Shown here: piece by piece, positions 17,275-22,872 of the stretch
Position numbering within the stretch: the stretch's first letter is position 1
Layout of the letters: each line of letters opens with the position of its first letter
Position numbers and translations under genes: made by a program
DNA from: an uncultured Actinomycetes bacterium
GTDB lineage: Bacteria; Actinomycetota; Actinomycetes; Nanopelagicales; Nanopelagicaceae
Direction of reading: 5' to 3'
Assembly (NCBI GenBank): GCA_903827945.1
Contig: CAIKKN010000019.1
Span: 1-64,000 of the forward strand
DNA length: 64,000 nt
Notes under the pieces: generated by a model
Told to the model about the DNA's origin: nothing
Database searches by the model: none
The model's input: only the letters and a program-made list of their open reading frames with translations

Positions 17275-18092
17275 GCATTCCTGGGAAGCGCCCAAAATTA
17301 ATTGGAACCGATCTTGACGGCACGATTGTTCGAGATTACTCAGGAGTTTCAAAGCGCACCGTAGAAGCTTTCCAACGCGCTCACGAAATGGGTATTGAAA
17401 TCTTTTATGTGACAGGCCGACCTCCAAGATGGATGCCTGAGATTCGAGAGACTTTCGGTCTTGGAAATGCGATTTGTGCAAACGGCGCAATTTTATTCGA
17501 CCTTATGAACGATCGAGTGTTGGAAGAGTGGTTAATGCCAATTGACGAGCAGAAGGAAGTTGTAAAAATTCTTCGTCAACATATTCCAAATATTTCTTTT
17601 GCAATCGAGTACAACAATGAGTTTCATCACGAGGTCGCATATGTTCCTCGTTGGGACGTCGGAGTTGATTTAGCACCAGTAGAGAAAATTGAAGAAAAGA
17701 TGACACAGCCAGCTTTTAAGATGCTTGCGCGTTGCTCTAACTACGACCTCACATCAGATCAAATGCTTCTTATCGCTCATCAAGTGGTTGGGGAATTAGC
17801 AACCGTTACGCACTCCAATCCATCTGAATCAATTCTGGAAATTTCAGCAATCGGCGTAAGTAAAGGTGAAACTCTTTCCAAGATGGCAGCTCGAGCTGGG
17901 ATTGGTCCAGAAGATGCCGTCACATTTGGGGATAATCCAAATGATTTCTCAATGCTGCGATGGGCTCATCGTTCATGGGCTATGGGCGATGCCCACCCTG
18001 AGACGAAGAATCACGCGAAATCTGTGGCCGATCTGCATACAGAAGATGGCGTCGCGAAGGTGATTGAGCAACTGCTCGAACTGCCTGAATAG
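17271..18092 (+). CDS. Cof-type HAD-superfamily phosphatase
   Basis: Likely hydrolyses a small phosphorylated metabolite. The 273-residue product has HAD motif I (GTDLDGTIV, near residue 13), motif II (YVTGRPPR), a class IIB cap in the middle, a Lys in GVSKGETL and motif IV ([13 protein letters not shown]). This is the Cof/YbiV plan. The substrate is unknown; such enzymes are often broad. It is translationally coupled to serS by an ATGA overlap, a recurrent arrangement in Actinobacteria. Confidence 0.88.
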
Positions 18093-18131
18093 AATTTTGA
18101 GTACTTCCACTCAGCCGGTAAGTTTGCCCAC

Positions 18132-18217
18132 GGAGGGCTCGCATAGCGGCCGAGTGCACCGGTCTTGAAAACCGGCAAGGGAAACCTTCGTGGGTTCAAA
18201 TCCCACGCCCTCCGCCA
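18132..18217 (+). tRNA. tRNA-Ser (anticodon TGA)
   Basis: The acceptor stem pairs GGAGGGC (18132-18138) with GCCCTCC (18207-18213). The anticodon stem CCGGT/ACCGG encloses CTTGAAA, with anticodon TGA at 18166-18168. A long variable arm (AAGGGAAACCTT) marks class II, and the T arm is GTGGG-TTCAAAT-CCCAC. CCA is encoded at 18215-18217. It lies downstream of serS and a HAD gene. Confidence 0.96.
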
Positions 18218-18235
18218 GTAAAAGGAATAAAGCAA

Positions 18236-18272
18236 GCGCAGGTGGCTGACTTCACAGCCCCTGCGCCTCTTT
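18236..18272 (+). terminator. Likely intrinsic terminator after tRNA-Ser
   Basis: A 12-bp stem with one bulged T (GCGCAGG and GGCTG pairing with CAGCC and CCTGCGC, ending at 18266) is followed by CTCTTT. The T tract is imperfect. It separates the tRNA from the sdh genes. Confidence 0.7.
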
Positions 18273-18291
18273 CTATCTAGCGCGTATCTCG

Positions 18292-19116
18292 ATGGCTCGG
18301 CAGAATTACGCCATGGCTACAGGCGTATTTTCTCAAGGACGAGCAAAGATTTCCGAGCGCACGTTGCGCACCGACAAATGGTGGATTCAACCCCTCATCA
18401 CCTTTGGGGTTCTCTTCTCATTTATTATTTATGCAACATGGCGCGCATTTGAAGGTGCGCACTATTACGCAGAACCTCTGATTTCTCCTTTCTATTCACC
18501 GTGCCTCACAACCGACTGTGTAAACGGTTCTTCACTTCTTGGAACTCCATTCGGCCACATTGTCCTATTTGGAATGGCGCTCTCACCCGCATTTATTATT
18601 TTGATCTTCCCTCTCGGATTCCGAATGACTTGTTATTACTATCGCAAGGCTTACTTCCGTTCCTTCTGGATGTCTCCGCCTGCATGTGCAGTTGCTGAGC
18701 CTCATGCTAAGTACACGGGAGAAACAAAAGCACCATTGATCGTAAACAATGGTCACCGCTATTTCTTTTACATTGGTTTAGTTTTTAACACACTCCTTAC
18801 TATTGATGCATTTCTCGCATTTAAAAATCCACAAGGCCAATGGGGCCATATGAGCATCGGAACTGTTGTGCTTCTCTTGAACGCAACATTCTTATGGGGC
18901 TATTCCGCTTCATGTCACTCATGTCGCCACGCGATTGGTGGTCGACTTCGCCACTTCTCCAAACATCCAATCCGCTATAAGGCTTGGACAATCGTTACTA
19001 AACTCAATACAAAACATCAGAATTTTGCTTGGGTCTCTTTGATCTGGGTTGCATTCTCTGATTTCTTTGTACGTATGGTTTCACTTCACCCAACCTGGAA
19101 TAAATACTTCTTTTAA
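18292..19116 (+). CDS. sdhC: Succinate dehydrogenase membrane-anchor subunit
   Basis: Anchors the SdhAB dimer and passes electrons to quinone. The 274-residue product has about five membrane segments and many His residues. It matches in size and position the single large anchor of the actinobacterial Sdh1 operon (M. tuberculosis Rv0249c type), not the paired short SdhC/SdhD. Notable features are WWIQPLITF near the start, FYSPCLTTDC and the late SCHSCRHAIGG motif. A second start at 18313 is possible, because CAGAAT ends 6 bases before it. It leads an sdhC-A-B order. Confidence 0.85.
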   Translation: MARQNYAMATGVFSQGRAKISERTLRTDKWWIQPLITFGVLFSFIIYATWRAFEGAHYYAEPLISPFYSPCLTTDCVNGSSLLGTPFGHIVLFGMALSPAFIILIFPLGFRMTCYYYRKAYFRSFWMSPPACAVAEPHAKYTGETKAPLIVNNGHRYFFYIGLVFNTLLTIDAFLAFKNPQGQWGHMSIGTVVLLLNATFLWGYSASCHSCRHAIGGRLRHFSKHPIRYKAWTIVTKLNTKHQNFAWVSLIWVAFSDFFVRMVSLHPTWNKYFF

Positions 19117-21795: not shown

Positions 21796-22158
21796 ATGAA
21801 ACTATTCATTCGTTGGGCGGTAATGGCACTGTCTGTTTGGGTTTCCACTTTGGTTATCCCTGGCATAAAAGTTCATGGTGGTGCATGGAGTTATTTCTGG
21901 GTCGCTTTAGTATTCGGATTAATTAATACCTTCATTGGATCCTTGCTTAAGGTATTAACACTTCCTGCAGTTATCCTCTCGTTAGGTCTCTTCATCTGGG
22001 TAATTAATGCAGCAATGTTGGAATTAACCGCACGCTGGAGCACAGCTCTCGACATTACGAGTTTCTGGTCTGCTCTCTTCGCAGCACTAATTATTAGCGT
22101 TGTTTCTTCAATGTTGAATCGCACCGTGAAGAAAGTAGGCGGGGCAGATAAATATTAA
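21796..22158 (+). CDS. Four-helix membrane protein of the holin superfamily IV (YvlD-like)
   Basis: The 120-residue product has four hydrophobic segments and the motifs WVALVFGLINTFIGSLLKVLTLP and SLGLFIWVINAAML typical of Phage_holin_4_2 family proteins. Chromosomal members are widespread in Actinobacteria and Firmicutes, and most have no link to phage. The function is unknown; some are linked to envelope stress. No phage gene is near. Its stop codon overlaps the probable ATT start of the following crcB gene. Confidence 0.82.
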   Translation: MKLFIRWAVMALSVWVSTLVIPGIKVHGGAWSYFWVALVFGLINTFIGSLLKVLTLPAVILSLGLFIWVINAAMLELTARWSTALDITSFWSALFAALIISVVSSMLNRTVKKVGGADKY

Positions 22159-22531
22159 AAGCGTTGCTGTTGTTTCACTAGGCGGCATTGTTGGTTCCCT
22201 CGCACGATGGGGCGCCTCACTTCTTTTTGTAGATAAAGGGTTTCCTTGGGCAACCTTGCTAGTCAATTACATTGGATCTGCTGTTCTTATGACGCTTCTT
22301 CTTTTTGTTCGCCACCATAAGAGTCCAAAATGGTGGTGGCGTCCGGCGCTTGGCGCAGGTTTTTGCGGAGGATTTACAACATATTCAGCATTTGCGCTAA
22401 AGATAGATCAATACTTTCAAGTTCATAATTATGGTTCGGCTCTAACGTATGCACTTGCTTCACTTTTAGGAACTTATCTCATAGTCCTAGTAACTCACGA
22501 AGCCCTTAAGAATAAGTGGGTTAAGCCATGA
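22154..22531 (+). CDS. crcB: CrcB fluoride channel subunit 1, probable ATT start
   Basis: Fluoride exporter subunit. The reading frame is open from 22139, and the conserved N-terminus with SLGGIVGSLARW is encoded before the first ordinary start codon (TTG at 22256). A protein from that TTG would lack the first membrane helix and the G-x-x-R motif. No ATG, GTG or TTG lies in frame between 22139 and 22256, so initiation is assigned to ATT at 22154, overlapping the previous stop (ATTAA); ATA at 22148 is the alternative. GGCGGGG lies about 9 bases before the ATT. The product would be 125 residues, with the channel motif GFCGGFTTYSAF. Confidence 0.75.
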   Translation: MKSVAVVSLGGIVGSLARWGASLLFVDKGFPWATLLVNYIGSAVLMTLLLFVRHHKSPKWWWRPALGAGFCGGFTTYSAFALKIDQYFQVHNYGSALTYALASLLGTYLIVLVTHEALKNKWVKP

Positions 22532-22872
22532 GAGCCATATTTGTTGCACTAGGCGCTGGAATAGGAGCGCCACTTCGATATCTCATTGATCAAGAAGTGA
22601 AGAAATTGCATCGATCATTGATTCCTGTTGAAACACTTTTCATTAATACAGTTGGGTCATTTGTCCTAGGGTTGATGATTAATTCTCATGGAAATTGGCT
22701 TTTAATCATTGGAACAGGTTTCGCAGGCGCATTTACAACATGGTCTACATTTGCAGTTGAAACTCATCACTTGCTCAAACATAAACATAGAAAAAAGGCA
22801 CTTTTGTACTTAGCGCTAACTCTCGTATGTGGAATCAGCGCAGCGGCTCTTGGTGTAAAACTAGCGAGCTAG
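22528..22872 (+). CDS. crcB: CrcB fluoride channel subunit 2
   Basis: Second CrcB/Fluc subunit, 114 residues with four membrane segments. It has GAGIGAPLRYLID at the start, NTVGSFVLGL in helix 2 and GFAGAFTTWSTFAVE in helix 3, the fluoride-pathway region. It overlaps the first crcB gene as ATGA. Adjacent unequal copies usually form an antiparallel heterodimer that lowers cytoplasmic fluoride. No fluoride riboswitch is visible upstream. The 3' end overlaps the convergent pepP gene by 12 bases. Confidence 0.92.
   Translation: MRAIFVALGAGIGAPLRYLIDQEVKKLHRSLIPVETLFINTVGSFVLGLMINSHGNWLLIIGTGFAGAFTTWSTFAVETHHLLKHKHRKKALLYLALTLVCGISAAALGVKLAS

Follow-up and report, generated by a model that had tools for sequence, protein, structure and literature searches.

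The stretch of DNA analysed here, referred to as the window, comprises 64,000 nucleotides from an uncultured member of the Nanopelagicaceae and has a G+C content of about 46%. It contains, in this order, sdhA, sdhB, a gene coding for a holin-like membrane protein with four transmembrane segments (PF04020; 21796..22158, plus strand), the channel genes crcB1 and crcB2, and a convergent pepP-like gene; the names sdh and pepP were assigned from reading the sequences, without a family search. The holin gene is located directly 5' of crcB1, and its stop codon TAA (22156-22158) falls within the crcB1 start region. The open frame of crcB1 extends over positions 22139-22531 of the plus strand, the part most likely translated being 22148..22531, and crcB2, which codes for the second Fluc subunit (22528..22872, plus strand), begins with an ATG that overlaps the crcB1 stop codon in the usual ATGA manner. 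Both CrcB proteins match PF02537, with scores of 79.9 and 98.2 bits at a cut-off of 32.9, and the TM3 motif GxxGGxTTFSTFxxE, as given in the accessible text of PMC3755343, is found in both of them, each time with substitutions (GFCGGFTTYSAF and GFAGAFTTWSTFAVE). With the limits of the helices only guessed, the positive charges appear mainly in the central loop and at the C-terminus of CrcB1, and mainly in the first and third loops of CrcB2. The crcB1 product is probably the first subunit of a paired, heterodimeric Fluc fluoride channel, as judged from its sequence. The accessible part of the same source describes the paired Flucs La1 and La2 as inactive singly and active together (PMC3755343); these resemble CrcB1 and CrcB2 in being encoded by tandem homologous CrcB genes. 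Start codons are not mentioned in that account, as far as its text is accessible. Fluoride riboswitches reaching the Rfam gathering score were found neither in the window nor in 20 related loci.

The crcB1 frame is closed on its 5' side by a TAG at 22136-22138, in agreement with the initial annotation, and continues with the codons GCG GGG CAG ATA (22148) AAT ATT (22154) AAA AGC. Direct reading of the frame bears out that no ATG, GTG or TTG occurs before the TTG at 22256..22258, which is codon 35 if counted from ATT. Two further details reported there can be seen in the sequence as well, namely that the ATT (22154..22156) overlaps the holin stop codon by a common T and that a GGCGGGG is present at 22138-22144; together with AGAAAG at 22130-22135, the latter makes up a Shine-Dalgarno-like stretch on the plus strand (22130..22144). 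The 64-kb window contains 67 non-overlapping stop-to-stop frames with 90 codons or more, and only in two of them does the first ATG, GTG or TTG come after more than 20% of the frame: crcB1 and a frame on the minus strand (18011-18316), which overlaps a tRNA gene (18132-18214).

Gene callers restricted to ATG, GTG and TTG would choose the TTG at 22256, the first standard start codon in the frame, and crcB1 would then have to be regarded as a truncated or decaying gene. Such a start would cost about 30% of the open frame, including the first conserved stretch of the CRCB domain (the Pfam CRCB match starts at residue 11 of the open frame), and the relatives keep the frame open through the start region. 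Moreover, the 32 codons preceding this TTG show high or saturated synonymous divergence together with lower nonsynonymous divergence, both with the closest relatives and in the clade comparison, and this pattern is present in the crcB frame only and absent from the two other frames. Between the loci L013 and L022, for instance, 6, 2 and 21 differences are counted at the three codon positions of this segment. The N-terminus of crcB1 ahead of TTG 22256 is, on the basis of these substitution patterns, coding and under purifying selection, and this codon is therefore rejected as the start; a truncated or decaying gene is hardly credible, and the possibility considered earlier that peptides might begin at this TTG is excluded by the selection acting on the N-terminus. 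The earlier advice to check for a sequencing error was followed by comparison with a second assembly (G018, locus L003), which shares 99.6% identity with the window across 2300 bases. It deviates at five places between 17 bases upstream and 107 bases downstream of ATT, has a TGG in place of the TAG at 22136, and contains the same ATA AAT ATT; the DNA around the start is identical to that of L003 in a further locus, L032 (contig CAIUFY010000086.1). Because the second assembly has the same bases at the crcB1 start, a miscalled base is an unlikely cause of the missing start codon.

The gene must start near 22148-22154, and two codons of this segment come into consideration. The initial annotation named the ATT at 22154 and left unmentioned the ATA at 22148..22150, two codons further 5'. 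The window belongs to a clade of five species (SH-aLRT support of 99 with four proteins and of 93 with two), whose codons from -2 to 0, with 0 being the position of the ATT, read ATA AAT ATT in the window and L003, ATA AAT ACT in L022 and L023, and ATC AAA ACT in L013. Comparing this codon in relatives, where an ATG or GTG had been expected to point to a recent change, was informative within the clade, in which ATT occurs in only two of the five members and ACT in the three sister species; ATG is found in the close relatives L005 and L028. The ATTAA overlap proposed for the window is accordingly not conserved. The codon at 22148, by comparison, is ATA or ATC in all five members, and this is the only near-cognate candidate they share because ACT is implausible as a start. 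In L050, which belongs to another genus, ATA at -2 is the sole near-cognate among the four codons counted. The conservation in the five species is weaker evidence than that for CTG in the family (see below), because of the overlap with the holin gene: the holin codons GAT AAA or AAT CAA cover the same bases and partly dictate the AT at 22148.

A start at AUU 22154, coupled through ATTAA, would require the sister species with ACT to start elsewhere. It would place the start where relatives have CTG, the commonest start of the family, and downstream of a GGGG whose possible pairing with the 16S tail gives an aligned spacing of 9; ATT is also known to initiate in mycobacterial reporters (PMC4633059, accessible text). 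Set against this are the ACT in all three sister species and the ATA or ATC kept in all five members two codons upstream. The ribosome-binding region fits both codons about equally, as a Shine-Dalgarno scan with a rough run-energy scale allows the 16S tail to pair either with the AGAAAG preceding ATA or with the GGGG preceding ATT. The 16S 3' end used for this purpose (CACCTCCTTTCT) was read in two members of the genus, with a third record ending before the tail, and no match to a 16S gene was obtained in the assembly of the window genome itself. We regard AUA 22148 as the likely start codon, with ATT being more likely isoleucine codon 3, and AUU 22154 as the second choice and a rather doubtful one; the codon named in the initial annotation was probably off by two codons.

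A survey of the family indicates that the window is not an isolated case. Among 251 family genomes searched, 195 contained matches, and 122 crcB1 loci, mostly from the better-scoring matches and not representing the full set, were placed by profile and compared after one duplicate (L072) had been dropped from 123 loci. This set includes L050, placed by profile, which had been left out of an earlier alignment with its N-terminus unaligned (duplicates were also removed there). The start was counted as standard if an ATG, GTG or TTG was present between the in-frame upstream stop codon, at a distance of at most 20 codons, and codon +4. As judged by this test, 62 of the 122 loci have no such codon, with 8/26 in genus g1, 35/53 in g16, 11/15 in g4, 3/11 in g15, 3/3 in g7 and 1/1 each in g10 and g14, and 0/12 across g3, g6, g9, g11, g12 and one unplaced record. 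Four of the 62 (L048, L076, L092 and L097) have a standard codon more than 20 codons upstream, and the first standard start lies at a median of 34 codons inside the gene. Each of the 62 has at least one of the codons CTG, ATT, ATC and ATA in its start region; CTG at codon 0 accounts for 43, ten have ATT or ATC at -1 or -2 (nine in g4 and one in g10), six have ATA or ATC at -2, and three have such a codon at other places. A CTG at codon 0 accompanied by a less fitting standard codon is present in four further loci (L044, L107, L124 and L139). Three genes of the same operon served as controls with the same method and loci, and none of them contained a non-standard start: sdhB with 0/118 (three without N-terminus, one absent), the holin gene with 0/92 (30 absent) and crcB2 with 0/121 (one absent). 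The window crcB1 is part of a family-wide pattern of non-standard starts, as read from these alignments. A weak start is not required, because 60 of the 122 loci, including L005 and L028 with their ATG, contain a canonical codon within the range tested.

Some further features of these loci may be added. In eight loci of g4 (L077, L078, L087, L092, L093, L102, L136 and L141), an ATT or ATC start seems to be placed one codon upstream of the usual position, and the overlap with the holin stop reads ATTCTAA, ATTTTAA or ATCTTAA. A class-wide search for orthologues gave matches in 15 of 197 genomes; only three of these lay outside the family, with weak matches. No crcB1 match was obtained in four of 32 genus members (G003, G009, G010 and G024), two of which are listed as 98-99% complete, so that some lineages may have lost the fluoride channel. 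The locus L040 (CAISYI010000242.1), labelled as uncultured beta proteobacterium, has the actinobacterial gene order sdhB-holin-crcB1-crcB2-pepP and probably represents a mislabelled or mixed bin.

A view on the junctions between the genes provides information on selection at the start codon. The holin stop TGA begins at the second base of the crcB1 start codon in 39 loci, which makes the start an NTG whose N doubles as the final letter of the last holin codon. All 39 of these junctions have C as N, with nine kinds of last holin codon (CTC, TTC, CAC, CGC, AAC, TCC, TAC, CCC and AGC), but the relatedness of the loci inflates such raw counts, and counts on the tree are the better guide: there, the third letter of this codon has 0 changes and its first two letters have 13, and the third letters of the six preceding holin codons have 4-18 changes each. 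Across the holin genes overall, these amino acids are not predominantly encoded by codons ending in C. The 117 NTGA junctions between crcB1 and crcB2 have A in 99, G in 16, T in 2 and C in 0 cases, and a fortieth junction of NTGA geometry ahead of crcB1, with sdhB upstream (L055), has G. Because the contrast between C-only and never-C junctions is unexpected from a neutral or protein-level cause, CTG appears to function as a start codon, which suggests that the weak crcB1 start is kept by selection across the family. In 9/9 overlapping loci of g4, the A of the ATT or ATC codon coincides with the fourfold-degenerate position of a holin Pro codon and shows no change. At the window junction (ATAAATATTAA), the NTGA overlap is absent and the holin stop is found at +2. 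The CTGA overlaps of the family and the ATT or ATC codons of g4 back the initial proposal of a rare start linked to the gene upstream, but not as far as the ATT of the window itself is concerned.

The association with the upstream gene may be described as follows. The holin gene is located directly 5' of crcB1 in 92 of the 121 family loci with an upstream gene in view, one locus without such a gene being left out of the tally. Non-standard crcB1 starts occur in 63/92 loci with the holin gene upstream versus 3/29 with sdhB upstream (Fisher p 2e-8); sorted by start class instead, 63 of the 66 loci scored as non-standard and 29 of the 55 scored as standard have the holin gene immediately 5' of crcB1. 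A comparison of the upstream holin gene with the start class on independent tree pairs was not significant (median p 0.125), and the link is suggestive only. Loci lacking the holin gene, with crcB1 right after sdhB, mostly have ATG, GTG or TTG (26/29), examples being the loci L065, L070, L094, L099, L118, L123 and L128, among others.

A non-adaptive relaxation would also be conceivable, in which re-initiation at the overlap is so efficient that the identity of the start drifts among near-cognates. This would agree with the variety of codons and positions encountered (CTG at 0, ATT or ATC at -1, ATA or ATC at -2, TTG at -2, ATG at 0, -7 or -8) and with the lack of significance on independent pairs of the sole trait tested against the start class. 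However, drift predicts a mixture of A, G, T and C at the NTGA junctions instead of an unchanged C in all of them, and crcB2, with the same NTGA geometry, never has C, which renders mere drift improbable. A different kind of explanation would dispense with a start codon altogether, if a holin-CrcB1 fusion were made by a programmed frameshift near the holin stop. The frames of the two genes do overlap at the end of the holin gene in many loci, and an A-rich stretch precedes the stop in one locus (L007), but the shift needed differs, with the holin stop at +2 in the window clade versus +1 in the CTGA loci, and the nine kinds of last holin codon imply that there is no shared slippery site at this place. 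CTG is also present where crcB1 directly follows sdhB without overlap, as in the three loci L069, L088 and L129. With neither a common frame offset nor a slippery site, the frameshift fusion was rejected, its probability being very small.

The preferred reading, a selected near-cognate start, has parallels in known systems. Few bacterial genes with starts other than AUG, GUG or UUG have been characterised so far, according to the accessible text of PMC5472188, which gives ATT in E. coli and ATC in Streptomyces as the start of infC. The infC gene, coding for IF3, shares the near-cognate start with crcB1, its AUU or AUC being discriminated against by IF3. It differs in encoding the factor itself and being autoregulated, whereas crcB1 encodes a membrane channel subunit within an operon and has CTG, ATT, ATC or ATA depending on the lineage. 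The infC gene of the window genome (L060 1489-1491, contig C24) has no ATG, GTG or TTG between the in-frame upstream stop and an ATC, and probably starts at this ATC. In Streptomyces, the GTC start of sigR is repressed by IF3 and holds SigR below its partner RsrA (PMC5472188, accessible text). Like crcB1, sigR belongs to an actinobacterial two-gene pair, and the conserved rare start of this first gene reduces its product relative to the partner; unlike crcB1, it has a GTC or GTT start and a strong ribosome-binding site, and no overlap with an upstream stop is described in the text accessible (PMC5472188). In the ATGA type of coupling, stop and start codons share bases, as seen in the ATGA, GTGA or TTGA of the crcB1|crcB2 junction, whereas the holin|crcB1 junction is CTGA wherever it has the NTGA geometry. 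The window junction corresponds to neither of these, with the ATA eight bases before the holin stop, or else an ATTAA. A literature search retrieved no report on crcB start codons or on the family-wide pattern.

As the most plausible explanation, we consider it likely that a selected near-cognate start keeps CrcB1 weakly translated and tied to the upstream gene. Initiation of crcB1 would take place at a near-cognate codon other than AUG, GUG or UUG inside the last codons of the holin-like gene; this codon alone would initiate poorly, and ribosomes finishing the holin gene a few bases away would re-initiate and account for most of the crcB1 translation. Translation of crcB1 should then be sensitive to IF3, and CrcB1 would be the scarcer subunit relative to CrcB2, whose start is strong. 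The weak start would be maintained family-wide, mostly as CTG in the CTGA overlap and as ATT, ATC or ATA in some lineages. Of this scheme, the coupling, the sensitivity to IF3, the dosage effect and the exact codon used in the window are what we infer. It is by analogy with the sigR start and the paired Flucs that crcB1 is inferred to be limiting and to follow holin translation. The accessible text of PMC4633059 reports that ATT initiated well in mycobacterial reporters and that CTG was not enriched, and in E. coli and chloroplasts reporters with CUG were not expressed (PMC9845219, accessible text); if CTG works as a start here, the coupling to a stop codon is likely to be the reason. A more far-reaching version, which we put forward only tentatively, is that the near-cognate start may act throughout the family as a regulatory dial, with CrcB1 made almost only by ribosomes ending the upstream gene and the number of channels set by IF3.

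For the annotation of these genomes, the pattern means that gene callers restricted to ATG, GTG and TTG will truncate crcB1 in such loci. For the biology of the family, a single gene offers about 120 natural start variants, with sdhB, the holin gene and crcB2 as controls from the same operon. This makes it possible to test a weak start codon as a selected regulatory feature, the capacity of CTG to act as a principal actinobacterial start once it is coupled to a stop codon, and the balancing of subunits in paired channels.
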